Positions 13,864 through 51,925 of a stretch of 64,000 bases of DNA are shown in pieces (within the stretch, counting starts at the first letter, position 1; each line of letters starts with the position of its first letter). This stretch comes from Paucisalibacillus globulus (GTDB taxonomy: Bacteria; Bacillota; Bacilli; Bacillales; Amphibacillaceae), in contig NZ_LT855406.1 in NCBI RefSeq assembly GCF_900184735.1, positions 1 to 64,000 on the forward strand. The letters are read 5' to 3'. Both the position numbers and the translations under genes were made by a program. Under the pieces are notes generated by a model. The model was not told the origin of the DNA. It made no database searches and was given only the letters and a program-made list of their open reading frames with translations.

Positions 13864-14496
13864 TTATTCCACCAAGTCATGCTTAAAAGCATAAATCACA
13901 GCTTGCGTCCGGTCCTGCACTTCAAGCTTTCCTAATATATTACTTACATGCACCTTCACTGTCTTAAGTGCAATAAATAATTCATCGGCAATCTCTTGAT
14001 TAGTCTTACCTTGAGCAACTAAAAGAAGAATCTCCTTTTCACGTTCCGTCAATTGATCATGAAGATGAACAACAGGCTTTTCACGCATTTTAGTCATAAT
14101 TTTCCCCGTTACCTCTGGTTCTAGGACAGATTCACCAGCATAGGTAGACCGAATGGCTTTAGCTATCTCCATAGCTTTCGAGGTTTTTAACATATAGCTT
14201 GTCGCGCCTGCTTCCAATGCGGGGTACACTTTTTCATCATCAAGGAAACTGGTTACGATAATGATCTTTGCTTCGGGCCATTGTTCTATAATCTGTTTTG
14301 TTGCTTCAATGCCGTCCATTTCTTTCATCACTAGATCCATTAGAATAATATCTGGCTTAAGTTCTAAGGCAAGGCTCACAGCTGGGGCACCATCACTCGC
14401 CTCAGCTATTACCTCGATATCTGGCTGTGCCGATAAATAAGCTGTTACACCAATCCGTACCATCTCATGATCATCTGCGAACAATACTCTTATCAC
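13864..14496 (-). CDS. liaR: response regulator LiaR
   Basis: A NarL/FixJ-type response regulator of 210 residues. Residues 1-120 are the receiver domain (DDHEMVR acidic pocket, phosphoacceptor Asp in IILMDLVMKEMDG, Lys in SYMLKTSK). The C-terminal LuxR-type helix-turn-helix holds LTEREKEILLLVAQGKTNQEIADELFI split over helices 1-3. In Bacillus, LiaR is phosphorylated by LiaS in response to lipid-II-cycle antibiotics and activates liaIH. The start overlaps the liaS stop (ATGA), and it is the last gene of the lia operon. Assignment rests on the intact operon context. Confidence 0.93.
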   Translation of the reverse strand: MIRVLFADDHEMVRIGVTAYLSAQPDIEVIAEASDGAPAVSLALELKPDIILMDLVMKEMDGIEATKQIIEQWPEAKIIIVTSFLDDEKVYPALEAGATSYMLKTSKAMEIAKAIRSTYAGESVLEPEVTGKIMTKMREKPVVHLHDQLTEREKEILLLVAQGKTNQEIADELFIALKTVKVHVSNILGKLEVQDRTQAVIYAFKHDLVE

Positions 14497-15533
14497 GCTT
14501 CTTCACCTTCCTTTCGTAAAATGGGGACTTTCACTTCTATTTGAGTACCTTGATTTGGTAACGAAACAATCTTCATGGTACCGCCAACTTCCAGTGCACG
14601 TTCCTCCATATTCTGTAAACCGTATGATCCGGTTTTTGCTGTATGGATATCAAATCCTATTCCATTATCCTTTACCCTCAAGATAGCGATATCATCACGT
14701 TTTATTAGAGTAACATGAAGAGCTGTTGCCTTCGCGTGACGGAGCGTATTGGACACTGATTCTTGCAAGATTCGGAACAATTGATCCTCAACACCTTTAT
14801 CAACTTTAAGATCTTCAACCTTCCATGAGATTTCCATAGGGACCTTCTGTTTAAGTTCTTCTAGTAATTCTTCCACACCTTCAAAGAGCGACTTTCCTTT
14901 CAGTGCTACTGGACGTAAATGGAGTAATAATGCTCGCATTTCAAGTTGGGATTGTTGAATCATATTTTCAACTAGTCCAAGTTGTTTTTTTACGGTTACA
15001 TCCATCTCTTTTGACGTCTCATTGATAGCAGACATCATCATTGAAGCAGCAAATAATTCCTGACTAACAGAATCATGTAGTTCCCTTGCTAATCGATTCC
15101 GCTCCTGAACAACGATATCTTGTAAGCTTTGCTCCCTCTCTTCGGCCCGCTTTGTCGCGAGACTCTGGAAATGCTCGGCTTGTTTATTAATTTTTTCCTG
15201 TATCTGTATCATTTTTTGTTCTAGATTATTTAATTCTTTATAGGAAAAATGATCTGTATCGATACTCTGACCTTTTGTTAATCTATCTAATTGTTTATCT
15301 AAGTACCCTATCCGTTGTTTCCAATACCAACCGATTGAAATTCCTAAAATCGCACCAGAGATAGTTGCTATAGCTAGAACTGTGATGAGAAAGGAAATAT
15401 CTCCAACTTTCATTTCCCAAAGCATGGACCAAGTAAATTCCTCATGTAAGAAGAAGGTTAACCCAACAGATAAAATGACTAAAACTAAACTATACATCAT
15501 TCCAATCATCATATGGCGAAGAACTGTCATCAT
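14493..15533 (-). CDS. liaS: sensor histidine kinase LiaS
   Basis: This 346-residue membrane kinase has two N-terminal helices (about residues 5-30 and 47-70) with a short extracytoplasmic loop, as expected for an intramembrane-sensing kinase. A HisKA_3 domain follows with the phospho-His in RLARELHDSVSQEL near residue 152, and then a HATPase domain (NTLRHAKA, VKDNGIGFD, GSYGLQNMEERA). LiaS phosphorylates LiaR under cell-wall stress and is held inactive by LiaF. Start and stop overlap the neighbouring liaF and liaR frames, so the three are coupled. Confidence 0.93.
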   Translation of the reverse strand: MMTVLRHMMIGMMYSLVLVILSVGLTFFLHEEFTWSMLWEMKVGDISFLITVLAIATISGAILGISIGWYWKQRIGYLDKQLDRLTKGQSIDTDHFSYKELNNLEQKMIQIQEKINKQAEHFQSLATKRAEEREQSLQDIVVQERNRLARELHDSVSQELFAASMMMSAINETSKEMDVTVKKQLGLVENMIQQSQLEMRALLLHLRPVALKGKSLFEGVEELLEELKQKVPMEISWKVEDLKVDKGVEDQLFRILQESVSNTLRHAKATALHVTLIKRDDIAILRVKDNGIGFDIHTAKTGSYGLQNMEERALEVGGTMKIVSLPNQGTQIEVKVPILRKEGEEA

Positions 15534-16255
15534 ATCCGCTTCACCTCGATATCACCGGAGAATACAGAGGTTATGATTTTCACTCTTGGATAAGTCGTAT
15601 CATAATTTTCCGTTTGGTATAATAGTGATTTATTGATTAAATTCATATCTTTTTCATCAAAGATATGTGCTCTGCCAAATACAGAGCTATGATGAATACT
15701 AACTTCCACATCATAAGGGACATAAATCTCGATATTTCCTACTAAATGGCGAATAGAAATTATGGCCGTGTCATTTGGTAGTACCGTGTTACTTAAATCT
15801 ATTATTCGATCCCCAATTGCACCGTGAATATTTACATCTCGCCATTGATAGGCCATATCTTCTGTCTGTGCATCCTCGAACAATTTGTTTTCAAATAGTG
15901 GTTTCAATTTAATTAGCTTTTCAGCATTTATTATATTACTAGGCAGAATTGGCTCTAGGTCTTTAGTTTTCTTAGACTCCGAGTAATCCTTTAGCCATAG
16001 AACAATGACTACAACGATTAGAAAGCGAACTGCCCAAAGATTTAAGATGGAAAAGATAAAAAATACCAAGAAAATCCAAAACAACACTTTTCCCCATAGT
16101 TGTTGGAAATTTTTCCACCCGATATATGCAAATATGGCAGAAAATATTGCTGGAATTATTGCTCCACCAAAATGAAATATAACTTCGAAAATAAGAAGGA
16201 TTACTCCTACGATCATAATCCAGTTGAGTGTATCTGTTTTTAGTTTATTGAACAT
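15530..16255 (-). CDS. liaF: LiaF, inhibitor of LiaRS
   Basis: LiaF restrains the LiaS kinase in the absence of envelope stress. The protein has several N-terminal hydrophobic helices (residues 10-90) and a C-terminal soluble LiaF/DUF2154 beta domain (DLSNTVLPNDTAIISIRHLVGNIEI split here; ending SVFSGDIEVKRI). The ATG at 16255, nine bases after GGGGGG, gives 241 residues, the usual length; an upstream in-frame ATG at 16273 is less likely. The stop overlaps the liaS start. No liaG is present between liaH and liaF, unlike in B. subtilis. Confidence 0.9.
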   Translation of the reverse strand: MFNKLKTDTLNWIMIVGVILLIFEVIFHFGGAIIPAIFSAIFAYIGWKNFQQLWGKVLFWIFLVFFIFSILNLWAVRFLIVVVIVLWLKDYSESKKTKDLEPILPSNIINAEKLIKLKPLFENKLFEDAQTEDMAYQWRDVNIHGAIGDRIIDLSNTVLPNDTAIISIRHLVGNIEIYVPYDVEVSIHHSSVFGRAHIFDEKDMNLINKSLLYQTENYDTTYPRVKIITSVFSGDIEVKRI

Positions 16256-16352
16256 AGCAGGAATCCCCCCCATTTATAAGAACTCATTCAGGCCCAATTT
16301 CTTGGGCCTGTGTCATGAGTATACCATTTTTAGGTAATATTTCGCATTTCAA

Positions 16353-16988
16353 TTAATTGGCTTTTTCTTTTTCTGCCAATTCCTTTTCTAATTTAGCGAT
16401 TTTGCTATCAAATGTGCTCTTATAGTATGCACTATTTACCTTATATTCTAAGTTGTCAATATAACGCTCCATCTCAGCAAACTTGGAGAAAGGCTTATCC
16501 GATACTTCATCCATCACACGATTAATTTGATGGTTAGCATGAAGGACATTCTCACGTCCCATCAATTCCATCCGACGAAGTCGCATATCTTTAATACGAT
16601 GTTTCATCTCTTCATACTTCTGTTCTAATTCTTCTAATTGCTCAATTGATTCCTGACGAGAAGCTTTCATTCTTTCAGCACGTGCTTGATACTCATCATG
16701 TTCCTTTTGAGCAAAAGCATGCATTTGCTCTTCTCCAGCTTTTTCTGCAATAGCAGCTTGCTTTTGACGCTTCTCAGCCATTTCCGCTGCTCTTAAATAT
16801 TCTTTAGAAAACTCATCCTTCAACTTGTATTGGCGCTCAATTAATTTGCGAACCTTCTCTACTTCTTGTTCCGCTTGGCGTAAGTATTGATTTAATGCAC
16901 CAACTGGGTTCTTCTGTTCTTTCTTGTCTAGTAAATCATGTAAATCCGCTTCGATTGAATCTTTAATACGTGTGAATACGTTTGTCAT
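16353..16988 (-). CDS. liaH: LiaH, PspA/IM30 family phage-shock protein
   Basis: LiaH is the PspA-like effector that forms large rings under the membrane when the Lia response is induced. This 211-residue protein is almost entirely helical and charged with long coiled-coil segments, opening MTNVFTRIKDSIEADLHDLL as in PspA/IM30 proteins, and containing the LREAEQEVEKVRKLI-type heptads. It starts at ATG 16988 behind AAAGGAGAG. The gene is separated from liaI by 591 bases that hold a tandem repeat, whereas in B. subtilis the two are adjacent. Confidence 0.93.
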   Translation of the reverse strand: MTNVFTRIKDSIEADLHDLLDKKEQKNPVGALNQYLRQAEQEVEKVRKLIERQYKLKDEFSKEYLRAAEMAEKRQKQAAIAEKAGEEQMHAFAQKEHDEYQARAERMKASRQESIEQLEELEQKYEEMKHRIKDMRLRRMELMGRENVLHANHQINRVMDEVSDKPFSKFAEMERYIDNLEYKVNSAYYKSTFDSKIAKLEKELAEKEKAN

Positions 16989-17048
16989 TTGTGTTCTCTC
17001 CTTTTTATTGTTTTTGTTTTATTTAGCTTTTTGAGCTTGTGGTGGAGT

Positions 17049-17552
17049 GGGTGCATGGTTGCTGGGTTTGGGCACATGGTTGCTCGGCTTGGGTACATCT
17101 TCGCTACACTTGGGCACATACTCTCGTGGGACGGGTGCATGGTTGCCTGCATCGGGAGCATACTCGCTATACTTGGGCACATTCTCCCTCATACCGGGCA
17201 CATGGCTGCCTGCACCGGGAGCATACTCGCTACACTTGGGCACATTCTCCCTCATACCGGGCACATGGTTACCAGCACCAGGAGCATACTCGCTACACTT
17301 GGGCACATACTCTCTCATACCGGGCATATGGTTGCCAGCACCGGGAGCATACTCGCTACACTTGGGCACATACTCTCGCCAAACGGGCACATGGTTGCCT
17401 GCATCGGGAGCATCCTTGCTTCCCTTGGGCACATACTCTCGCCAAACGAGCACATAGTTGCCAGCACCGGGAGCATACTCGCTACACTTGGGCACATACT
17501 CTCGCCAAACGGGCACATGGTTGCCAGCACCGGGAGCAGCCCCGCACCACTC
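17049..17552. repeat. 21-bp tandem repeat with 63-bp higher-order period between liaI and liaH
   Basis: About 24 units of exactly 21 bp follow one another without any insertion or deletion (unit starts at 17049, 17070, 17091 and so on to 17532), each opening GGG and carrying CAT near base 6. Three unit types alternate to give a 63-bp period: GGGCACATGGTTGCC..., GGGAGCATACTCGCT... and GGGCACATACTCTC.... Because 21 is a multiple of three, several frames on both strands are open over long distances with 21-residue repeats. On the lia strand none of these frames has a convincing ribosome site. It lies inside the transcription unit that must read from liaI to liaH, and is much richer in GC than the flanks. 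Confidence 0.9.
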
Positions 17553-17579
17553 AGACCAATATCTCCATTAATACAATGC

Positions 17580-17930
17580 CTAATTATTCAATTCCGCCCA
17601 CTGGCGTTCAAAGTTAGTAAATGGATCATTGTCATCAGTAGGAATTACGGTTTCACGCTTTTCCTTTTTCCAGTTTTTCATTATCCAGAACAGTGCAAAT
17701 GCAGCTGCGATTCCTAGAACTGCATAGATGTTTGATAACGCAATGCCTAATATAAATAATCCTAGAATGACCCAACCAATTTTCCCTGCAGCAGAATCAC
17801 TCTTTACGAACTTCTTAAAGACGATGTAAAGTAGCCAGATGCTTAGACCTAGTAAAACCATTGGCCCTAGATTTGCAAGTAATACTAGTAGGGCAATTAG
17901 TCCTCCTATAAACAACATAAACTTTCTCAT
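17580..17930 (-). CDS. liaI: LiaI-like membrane protein
   Basis: The 116-residue protein has four closely spaced hydrophobic segments (residues 5-22, 24-38, 50-66, 68-84) and a charged cytoplasmic tail (KNWKKEKRETV ... DPFTNFERQWAELNN). It is the first gene of the lia operon, where LiaI anchors LiaH rings at the membrane. Sequence similarity to B. subtilis LiaI is limited, so the name rests on position and topology. It begins at ATG 17930 after AAAGGAGG. The operon promoter should lie in 17940-18060. Confidence 0.7.
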   Translation of the reverse strand: MRKFMLFIGGLIALLVLLANLGPMVLLGLSIWLLYIVFKKFVKSDSAAGKIGWVILGLFILGIALSNIYAVLGIAAAFALFWIMKNWKKEKRETVIPTDDNDPFTNFERQWAELNN

Positions 17931-18033
17931 GTAATTGCCTCCTTTCTTGATCTTGACTTAATCTTACCGAAGAAATTAACTCTGGATAATGAGCCTAAGC
18001 TATATTTTGTGCTAGGTCTTAGGGCTTAGAAGG

Positions 18034-18047
18034 GGCTAGGGCTAGCC
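18034..18047. promoter_or_regulatory. inverted repeat upstream of liaI, candidate LiaR site
   Basis: An inverted repeat GGCTAG-GG-CTAGCC lies about 105 bases upstream of the liaI start, and a TATAGC-like -10 hexamer follows some 40 bases downstream on the lia strand. No good -35 box is visible, as expected for an activator-dependent promoter. Assignment to LiaR is inferred from position only. Confidence 0.3.
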
Positions 18048-18070
18048 GAATAAGAAGTACTACTACATAA

Positions 18071-18121
18071 AAAAAGCTGTTGCAAGGGCTAGAATAATAC
18101 ATGCCTTTGCTACAGCTTTTT
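18071..18121 (-). terminator. intrinsic terminator after metallophosphoesterase
   Basis: Arms AAAAAGCTGT (18071-18080) and ACAGCTTTTT (18112-18121) pair, extended by GCAAGG/CCTTTGC inside with one bulge. In the leftward direction the stem ends in a U-run, closing the gene that stops at 18136. Confidence 0.75.
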
Positions 18122-18135
18122 CTAAATTTTTTATG

Positions 18136-18999
18136 TTACTTTCCGTTTGTACCAACAACGTTAACCAAACTAATTTGACTCTGATTCCAGAATCTAATTG
18201 GTAACACACTAGTCCCCAAGCCACTATCTATATATAGATACCTTTTGCTGCTAATTTCAAATATCCCTTTATCCAATTCAGGGAAAAATCCTTGGTCAGG
18301 AGCGATTAGAGCCCCAATTAGTGGTACTCTCACTTGTCCACCATGTGTATGCCCACTCAATATTAAGTTAGCCTGAATATCCTGGTATTCTTCCACAACA
18401 GTAGGGGAATGGGAAAGTAGTACTGTATAGAATTCATGGCTCACACCGTCAAATGCTAGATTAATATTCTCATGGTTAGTTGATTGATTATCAATCCCGA
18501 CTAGATTTATAGTAGTAGTTCCAATCGTGATTTGAGTGTTTTTATTATTTAGGATGGTTACACCTCTTTTTGAAAGACCCTCTAATATCTCTTCTGTATA
18601 TTTGTTCTCCCACTCATGGTTTCCAGTTACAAAATAAATGTGTCGATTAATTTCTACAAGTTTCTCAACCAATGAGAATACATTGGAATAATTCGAAGTC
18701 TTCCTATCTACTAAGTCTCCAGTCAAAACAATAATATCGGCAGTGTTTCGATTAACCGCTTCAATTAATTTTTCATTCTGGTTACCAAATACTTTATTAT
18801 GTACATCACTAATTTGCATAATAGAAATTTCTGTGCCCAATGGGATTTTATCCGTATCAAGCTGAACTTTATTTATCCGAAATATATTGGTGTCAATATA
18901 AGTTTTACTTGCTGTAAATACGATGAATATTATTGCAAGGTATACCATGATTCGTTTTTTGTTTCTCCTAAAGTAAGTATTATTTTGTTTGCTTAACAT
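18136..18999 (-). CDS. membrane-anchored metallophosphoesterase
   Basis: This 287-residue protein starts with a basic N-terminus and one membrane helix (IMVYLAIIFIVFTASKTY), placing the catalytic domain outside the membrane. It has the calcineurin-like phosphoesterase motifs in order: ISDVHNKVFG (D-x-H), TGDLVDR (GDxxDR), TGNHEWE (GNH[DE]) and SGHTHGGQV (GHxH). This is the YaeI/YkuE-type subgroup. The substrate may be a lipid-linked phosphate, but this is not visible from sequence. Single gene, closed by its own terminator. Confidence 0.87.
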   Translation of the reverse strand: MLSKQNNTYFRRNKKRIMVYLAIIFIVFTASKTYIDTNIFRINKVQLDTDKIPLGTEISIMQISDVHNKVFGNQNEKLIEAVNRNTADIIVLTGDLVDRKTSNYSNVFSLVEKLVEINRHIYFVTGNHEWENKYTEEILEGLSKRGVTILNNKNTQITIGTTTINLVGIDNQSTNHENINLAFDGVSHEFYTVLLSHSPTVVEEYQDIQANLILSGHTHGGQVRVPLIGALIAPDQGFFPELDKGIFEISSKRYLYIDSGLGTSVLPIRFWNQSQISLVNVVGTNGK

Positions 19000-19140
19000 C
19001 TATCCATCCTCCGAATTAGTTCAATTATCACCACTATTTTCCTCATAAGTACTCTCCTTAATGAAACTGCAATTATTATAACAACAATAATCAATTTATA
19101 ACATAACAAAGGTGCACTTTCACAAGTAGCATTTTAAGGA

Positions 19141-19169
19141 GTGACAGGTATCACAAATCCTTGTATAAT
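19141..19169 (+). promoter_or_regulatory. sigma-A-type promoter of the leader-fusB unit
   Basis: A -35 box GTGACA (19141-19146) and a perfect -10 box TATAAT (19164-19169) are separated by 17 bases. The first ribosome site downstream is GGAGGTGAT, ahead of a 20-codon leader frame, not the 220-codon gene itself. Confidence 0.75.
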
Positions 19170-19198
19170 TCTGTTAGGCTTGCTTGGAGGTGATAGAA

Positions 19199-19261
19199 AT
19201 GGCGGGATTATTTACATATCAGCCAATAATTGTAGGAGCTCATGCAAAGCCAATTTATTAG
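19199..19261 (+). CDS. 20-residue leader peptide upstream of fusB-like gene
   Basis: The peptide MAGLFTYQPIIVGAHAKPIY is encoded directly behind a very strong ribosome site (TTGGAGGTGATAG) and a good promoter. It has no coding continuation and stops 101 bases before the fusB-like start. Its last codons (AAG CCA ATT) form one arm of a 10-bp stem with 19317-19326. Plasmid-borne staphylococcal fusB is reported to be preceded by a leader peptide and controlled by translational attenuation, so I infer the same role here. It could also be a chance frame, but promoter, spacing and structure argue against this. Confidence 0.65.
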   Translation: MAGLFTYQPIIVGAHAKPIY

Positions 19262-19353
19262 AAAGGCGATACTTTGTATGAGGTAAATTATCTACTCGCC
19301 TAGTCTCATTTCTGATAATTGGCTTTAATCATTTGCTATAAAAAAATGAGGAG
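19246..19353 (+). promoter_or_regulatory. candidate translational attenuator of fusB-like gene
   Basis: Three stems can be drawn: 19246-19255 with 19317-19326 (10 perfect pairs), 19264-19269 with 19296-19301 (AGGCGA/TCGCCT, nested inside the first) and 19305-19311 with 19344-19350 (CTCATTT/AAATGAG). The last covers part of the GAGGAG ribosome site at 19348-19353 and cannot coexist with the first stem. Mutually exclusive structures that overlap a leader peptide and the next ribosome site are the hallmark of attenuation. Which state is the induced one cannot be decided by eye. Confidence 0.55.
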
Positions 19354-19362
19354 CTGATAGAA

Positions 19363-20025
19363 ATGACAAAGAAAATCAATATCGTTTTGGAAAATATTCC
19401 ATTCCTTAGACATGATCAATACAACTTTATTAAGTACCAACTGTCCAATATTGTTCATGCTCGTTTAACTTCAAAGGATGAAGAAGTTATAAATACCGTA
19501 AAGTTGATTGCAATGGATAAGATATTTTCTATATTGCCTAACTTAAATGAAAATCAACAGATGTTGTTATCCAGAATTGTAAATATAGAAGAGCAAAACC
19601 AGGTAGATTCTTTTTTAACGGAATTAAAAACCTATGTTATTCCTTTTAGAAGCACATCAGAAAAAGCGCTTTCTAAACTATTTCCGAAAGTAAAAAAGTT
19701 CAAAGGTCCGGATCTTAATACAATTGACTTTAGAGATATATCTTATATAGGTTGGTATGATATTCGCTCGGAAAGGAAGTTTCTAGTAACGGAACACAAC
19801 GGGAAGTTGATAGGTTTCCAAGGAACTTTTATGAAGAGCATAAAAGGTATATGTTCGATATGCAATCGATATGAAGATGTTGGATTATTTATGGCTAATG
19901 TGAAAACGGGAAAAGAAACGTATACAAATCGCGGAAATTACATTTGCGCAGACAGTCATAAATGTAACCAAAACCTAACCACTTTAGATAAATTACACTA
20001 CCTTATTGAATTATTAAGTAACTAA
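19363..20025 (+). CDS. FusB/FusC-type elongation factor G-binding protein
   Basis: FusB-family proteins bind EF-G and release it from ribosomes stalled by fusidic acid. This 220-residue protein has the expected plan: an N-terminal four-helix bundle (residues 1-95), and a C-terminal mixed domain with zinc ligands C164-x2-C167, C195 and C201 (CSICNR and YICADSHKC). Length is close to FusB (about 213). Chromosomal homologues are common in Bacillaceae and need not confer clinical-level resistance. It starts at ATG after GAGGAG and is preceded by a leader peptide and stem structures that suggest drug- or stall-dependent expression. Confidence 0.88.
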   Translation: MTKKINIVLENIPFLRHDQYNFIKYQLSNIVHARLTSKDEEVINTVKLIAMDKIFSILPNLNENQQMLLSRIVNIEEQNQVDSFLTELKTYVIPFRSTSEKALSKLFPKVKKFKGPDLNTIDFRDISYIGWYDIRSERKFLVTEHNGKLIGFQGTFMKSIKGICSICNRYEDVGLFMANVKTGKETYTNRGNYICADSHKCNQNLTTLDKLHYLIELLSN

Positions 20026-51798: not shown

Positions 51799-51925
51799 CC
51801 CGTTCATTTATCTTTTTTGGTAGATTGTGCTTGAGTACATATATAACAGGATTGGGACCATCTCACTCTATTTTGGGTTCAACTGATTTAGGAACGGGAG
51901 CATCCGCCTAAAGCATAGACGCATC

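Follow-up and report, generated by a model that had tools for sequence, protein, structure and literature searches.

The iterons of plasmid and phage replication origins are direct repeats of about 17-22 bp that carry a conserved core and are set in helical phase. KOPS/SRS, Chi and Ter are single sites or small sets. Tandem intergenic units of about 20 bp whose copy number varies are described among bacterial minisatellites and small dispersed repeats (PMC2884548). The array analyzed in this work lies between the liaI and liaH genes in a stretch of 64,000 nucleotides (the window), and it shares some properties with each of these systems. As in iterons, direct repeats hold a conserved core in helical phase, but here more than 50 chromosomal sites are occupied, single arrays reach up to 37 units, and two versions of the core are tied to the replication strand. 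The strict 21-bp phase, the protected core beside a free spacer and the strand-typed cores set it apart from these minisatellites. Like REP/BIME and REPIN, it belongs to a dispersed intergenic repeat family, but its units are direct repeats and show no hairpin beyond the control. Its orientation follows replication, as does that of KOPS/SRS, Chi and Ter, but it is built as a tandem array and its core is not enriched outside arrays. No description of such arrays was found in the open-access library searched.

The array in the lia operon

The preliminary description had proposed a GC-rich 21-bp tandem repeat with a 63-bp higher-order period between liaI and liaH, and our analysis confirmed it. 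TRF reported a 63-bp period with 7.0 copies at 17101-17538 (score 611) and a 21-bp period with 3.1 copies at 17054-17119. The self-identity of the region 17049-17552 at lags of 63, 126 and 21 was 0.84, 0.81 and 0.54, respectively. A core-anchored finder delimited 24 units in unbroken phase (Table 1). The GC content is 0.545-0.57 within the array (200-bp windows, 17100-17599) vs 0.28-0.43 in the array-free windows of 15000-20000. The array is well beyond chance, and its sense strand, i.e., the minus strand, is the leading strand according to GC skew.

It had also been stated that liaI and liaH are normally adjacent. This is the case in 64/80 named loci (80 retained out of 182), where the gap is at most 50 bp, whereas here the gap measures 591 bp and is mostly filled by the array. 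The LiaI protein gave no Pfam match above the cut-off, and tblastn matched it to the gene preceding liaH in 80/80 loci. Genes were called by a simple longest-ORF method and checked with Pfam where this is named. A search of 16900-18150 revealed no terminator-like site, and no Rfam match fell in the array when 15000-19500 was searched.

Table 1. Features of the lia region and a further array in the window
Feature	Coordinates	Strand	Basis or remark
liaR, response regulator	13864..14496	-	Pfam
liaS, histidine kinase	14493..15533	-	Pfam
liaF	15530..16273	-	Pfam, E 5e-39
liaH (PspA/IM30 family), downstream of array	16353..16988	-	PspA_IM30, E 3e-15
AC-rich 3' flank, array to liaH, ending with the liaH ribosome site AAAGGAGAG	16995..17035	-	
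165-codon open frame with HVP/YAP heptads	17019..17516	-	Regarded as a mere consequence of the 21-bp period
Array with type 1 core ATGNNCCC: 24 units of 21 bp in a 63-bp higher-order period	17036..17539	-	TRF, self-identity, core-anchored finder
GT-rich 5' flank (sense), liaI stop to array	17540..17579	-	
liaI-like gene, 116 aa, upstream of array	17580..17930	-	Position and tblastn
Second, worn array of the same family, 5 units	51820..51924	-	Type-1 finder only; outside the 54 arrays counted

A genome-wide family with two cores

The interpretation of the repeat as part of the lia operon stood only in part: the array is real, but about 50 other sites carry such arrays, and hence it is not specific to lia. 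The repeat block is a member of a genome-wide family and not a lia feature. The fetched parts of the genome contain at least 54 intergenic arrays with at least 5 units, 994 units in total; the array counts given here are lower bounds, and the absences are valid at the search depth used. A 3-unit pattern allowing up to 3 mismatches matched 465 and 154 times on the two strands, compared with 8 and 11 times for the reversed control, and a sequence model built from 41 of the 49 extracted 126-mers gave at least 149 genome matches when 150 of 469 first-look candidates were scored. Outside the arrays, the full motif occurs at 2 sites in 131 kb of intergenic DNA vs 2.7 in shuffles, and thus its use as a single site is not visible and we have rejected it as a single-site signal. 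The stretch C12:155-225 kb was considered as an island and dropped, its genes being by eye core genes, e.g., ATP synthase and glyA.

Two observations on individual arrays can be added. One contig ends within an array (L016; G000:C2 end, 202876), and arrays of this kind may break short-read assemblies. Only one of the 54 arrays, that at C16:175660 (L121), lies between the arms of a perfect inverted repeat of 17 bp, TAGAAACTGTGCGGTAA; inverted repeats of 12 bp or longer are absent around the other 53.

Each unit consists of a conserved core (ATGYNCCC...A in type 1) and about 8 free bases. In the 643 type-1 units, which come from arrays chosen by the core, positions 0-7 have the sense consensus A T G Y N C C C, with frequencies of 0.95 for the A and 0.99 for the T of the ATG and of 0.94 and 0.98 for the first two C; position 18 is A in 0.91 of the units, and positions 10-17 are nearly free. 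The consensus was derived from arrays with a type score >0.7 (643 units) or >0.6 (311 units), and core conservation in it is inflated because the arrays were found via the core. The phase noted in the lia array is held throughout the family: the spacing of strong cores is exactly 21 in 575/683 cases and a multiple of 21 in 607/683, and TRF gave 0% indels in 34/49 arrays.

Adjacent units often alternate in their free part, and the best higher-order lag is even in 31/35 arrays, the lia array, with a best lag of 3, being one of the four exceptions (414 copy pairs with an identity of 0.75 or higher, from arrays with 8 units or more). Between higher-order copies, type 1 arrays differ by 0.067 in the core and 0.213 in the spacer (p 4e-55) and type 2 arrays by 0.081 and 0.200 (p 3e-16), these p values being too small because the columns were treated as independent. 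The core thus changes 2.5-3 times less than the spacer between duplicated copies. In this test, which used 49/54 arrays, the array boundaries were taken from TRF instead of the core, so that it escapes the core-selection bias in part, the TRF repeats lying inside arrays already found. If the core were not protected, fresh copies should differ evenly across core and spacer.

In both core types, the 60-bp flanks are GT-rich on the 5' side (0.65-0.67) and AC-rich on the 3' side (GT 0.35-0.37); the 5' flank exceeds the 3' flank in GT in 50/53 arrays, unlike the means of 169 control gaps, and the free positions drift likewise along the array in 32/34 arrays. A pairing of the GT-rich with the AC-rich flanks was rejected, since matched pairs were no better than mismatched ones (53/54 arrays).

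The second core version, CTTGTGACC, has the same 21-bp period, and its pattern matched 136 and 46 times vs 0 and 0 for the control. We have set the type by positions 0 and 5, i.e., A..C for type 1 and T..A for type 2. The sense strand is the leading strand in 34/35 type-1 arrays and in 0/19 type-2 arrays (Fisher 1e-13), and therefore the core version predicts the replication strand in 53/54 arrays of this genome; the exception, C22:364939, is a 0.56/0.44 mixture of the types. The leading strand was assigned per contig from the GC skew of sampled stretches (C10 by local sign), a measure that at short array loci can deviate locally with gene direction. Neighboring genes do not explain this rule, because between tandem genes the arrays lie in mixed orientations (type 1, 11 sense and 6 antisense; type 2, 1 sense and 10 antisense). 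Five of the six antisense type-1 arrays keep to the leading strand although both of their neighbors lie on the lagging one, all ten neighbors having Pfam domains; the sixth is the mixed array. The first five arrays had suggested that the upstream gene sets the orientation, which the larger set did not bear out.

The family in related genomes

By LiaH identity, the nearest named genomes are Paucisalibacillus sp. EB02 (99%) and P. globulus (96%), followed by Ornithinibacillus massiliensis (92%) and O. halotolerans (89%). The labeled relatives probably correspond to the species given here, to which they were tied by identical lia spacers. Under strict filters, and with 57 first-look candidates scored per genome, the family model matched in 8/11 genomes of the genus; at that depth 3/11 had no match, and neither had any of 50 genomes from other genera of the order.

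The strand rule is strong in the genome analyzed and recurs in two relatives, but P. globulus does not follow it. In EB02 (G007) type 1 is leading in 8/8 arrays, 3 of them in weak-skew stretches, and in O. massiliensis (G010) in 6/7, 1 with weak skew. P. globulus (G001), with the same core, has 5 leading and 6 lagging arrays, and O. halotolerans (G003) has 2 and 2, the lagging ones with weak skew. In O. caprae (G008) the unit is one of its own, CTTGTGTCCGATGTT, and lies on the lagging strand in 5/5 arrays, one with weak skew. These counts refer to arrays called under the strict definition, with 5 or more units, in stretches chosen mostly around model matches; the loose core definition was noisy in the relatives and the stricter one was used. 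In EB02, the nearest relative, type 2 is seldom encountered (1 pattern match vs 182 here).

A comparison of the liaI-liaH spacer among relatives had been suggested, and in it the strict finder called an array in P. globulus only. By eye, about 5 worn units can be recognized at this site in EB02, 4 in P. globulus, 3 in O. massiliensis and 2 in O. halotolerans (4, 4, 2 and 2, respectively, by core count). These small numbers support the suspected expansion in the form of growth at the lia site. No units were found there in G002, G004 and G008, and no LiaI match was obtained in G005, G006 and G009. Another site, C16:145988, has 37 units vs 6 in EB02. For 18/54 arrays both flanks were found together in one fetched relative stretch, and in 15/18 of these the gap of the relative contains four or more strong cores on a single strand, in other unit numbers, a fraction that is not a rate since the relative stretches were mostly picked around arrays.

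The 3' end of tdk carries a type-2 array here, and by eye five relatives, including the nearest one, have no array at this site. Unrelated short repeats were seen there by eye in G009, G004, G002 and G008, and a scan of the tdk site among the relatives at 1e-6 confirmed a repeat in G006 only, with period 20. Taken together with the 3/11 genomes without a match, the lack of the tdk array in the nearest relative indicates that single arrays or the whole family can be missing.

Arrays with a 20-21 bp step are also found elsewhere in Bacillales. At 1e-6, a period scan of the 80 lia loci gave 11 intergenic hits, 8 of them with period 20, 21 or 40 (two being halves of one array, and L104:6259 possibly coding); at 1e-8 there were 9 hits, 6 with period 21, and 0 in shuffles. 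Among 40 tdk loci the scan at 1e-6 gave 12 hits, 9 with period 20, 21, 40 or 41, one period-40 hit being another dispersed repeat, while three shuffles of these loci gave 2 hits in total. Neobacillus niacini has, in its own liaI-liaH gap, a 21-bp array with another core, TCACAACA (L101:2864-2969). By eye, a different GC-rich sequence, alike in all three, occupies this gap in two Oceanobacillus and one Metabacillus (L030, L031 and L105), and thus the gap tolerates insertions. O. massiliensis has two more 21-bp arrays with other cores (L223:13307-13412 and L242:462-567), which means that several cores are possible within one genome. Phages and plasmids gave no family match; the pattern hit one viral contig (L204:7884-7967), where the repeat is a different, AT-rich, iteron-like 21-bp direct repeat.

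The shared 20-21 bp step with differing cores suggests that the period, and not the sequence, is the conserved property. One could go further and imagine a general, undescribed system of intergenic two-turn (20-21 bp) arrays in Bacillales, with lineage-specific cores read by a fast-evolving DNA-binding protein, whose two cores would mark here the leading and lagging strands as strand-aware signposts, but we consider this extension rather unlikely.

Possible roles of the arrays

Our tentative preference is to place the lia block in a family of iteron-like arrays that are intergenic and non-coding and that occur in most of the genomes sampled from the genus. At gene borders they could serve as helically phased binding arrays for a putative host protein. 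The units show the repeat structure of iteron arrays, i.e., direct repeats with a conserved core and a step of about two helical turns, and the combination of a protected core, a free spacer, this step and polarity fits a binding array for a protein that follows one helix face. A sequence-specific host DNA-binding protein would read the cores. As the period corresponds to two turns, all cores would lie on one side of the helix, and the protein would line up on that face to form a polar nucleoprotein stretch at the gene border. The most likely use would be a boundary with a defined side on which replication or transcription machinery arrives as it passes; going from a binding site to a boundary is the least secure step of this explanation. 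The absence of core enrichment outside the arrays speaks against it, as do the breakdown of the strand rule in P. globulus, its unclear state in O. halotolerans and the genomes or sites in which the family or an array is missing. The lia array would then have long adjoined the liaI 3' end and have grown in this species, and its effect on liaH, if any, may be incidental.

A close rival, just behind the binding array, is a selfish or neutral minisatellite that expands by slippage and unequal recombination, its core being needed by the amplifying or spreading process and its polarity arising from strand-sensitive spreading; we regard it as a serious possibility. The arrays have head-to-tail units whose copy number varies between species at one site, as expected of a minisatellite or VNTR, and the wide variation at lia and at C16:145988, the repeated duplication visible in the even higher-order lags, the narrow distribution within the genus, the lack of polarity in P. 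globulus and the inverted repeat bracketing C16:175660 are in its favor. On the other hand, the 53 arrays without such a repeat speak against it, as do the sites that in relatives still hold strong cores on one strand. Within one array, units that alternate have the core in common but not the spacer, and thus they are not fresh copies. The slower change of the core between duplicated copies likewise speaks against this rival.

The preliminary description had considered that the array could act in the mRNA, and indeed it is oriented along the transcription of an operon in which the gap is mostly short elsewhere, so that a transcript from the liaI promoter must cross it before liaH. Tuning of liaH expression, mRNA decay or translation coupling by the array nevertheless appears improbable. 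Array orientation in the family does not follow the neighboring genes, and array length is not conserved at lia. In 34 arrays, each compared with 20 shuffles, the folding energies are somewhat below those of dinucleotide-shuffled sequence (mean z -0.9 for the sense and -1.2 for the antisense strand), but they equal those of a column-permuted control that keeps the period (z +0.3 and 0.0), and therefore we have rejected an RNA hairpin. Since the energy does not depart from this control, the palindromic stem-loop units of REP/BIME are not found either. A CRISPR array does not fit, as the free part comprises about 8 bp within the 21-bp unit and is itself duplicated in the higher-order periods.

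Replication fork traps like the Ter sites of B. subtilis with RTP would account for the polarity of the arrays relative to replication, and the core may partly resemble Ter cores. This is a still less probable reading, because RTP (PF02334), the sole DNA-binding protein searched for, has no match in the genome (among 14 control genomes it was present in B. subtilis only) and because an array at C10:251 kb is near an origin-type skew switch located somewhere in 165-250 kb.

A family of repetitive heptapeptide proteins, also raised earlier from the long open frames that indeed occur on both strands of the block, is hardly tenable: the period is divisible by three and a sense frame, HxP, is free of stops in the lia array, but this frame has stops in 25/38 arrays, no frame is open in all members and each of the six has stops in most arrays (summed per frame, 76-277 stops in 35 type-1 and 44-202 in 19 type-2 arrays), the T of CAT, silent in the HxP frame, is the most fixed position (0.99, in arrays chosen by the core), and some related Bacillales arrays step by 20 bp.

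In genome annotations, the arrays may yield spurious heptad-repeat 'hypothetical proteins'. They offer a defined DNA bait for finding the putative reader protein, and a core version that predicts the replication strand in all but one of the arrays would make the family a chromosome landmark of an unusual sort.
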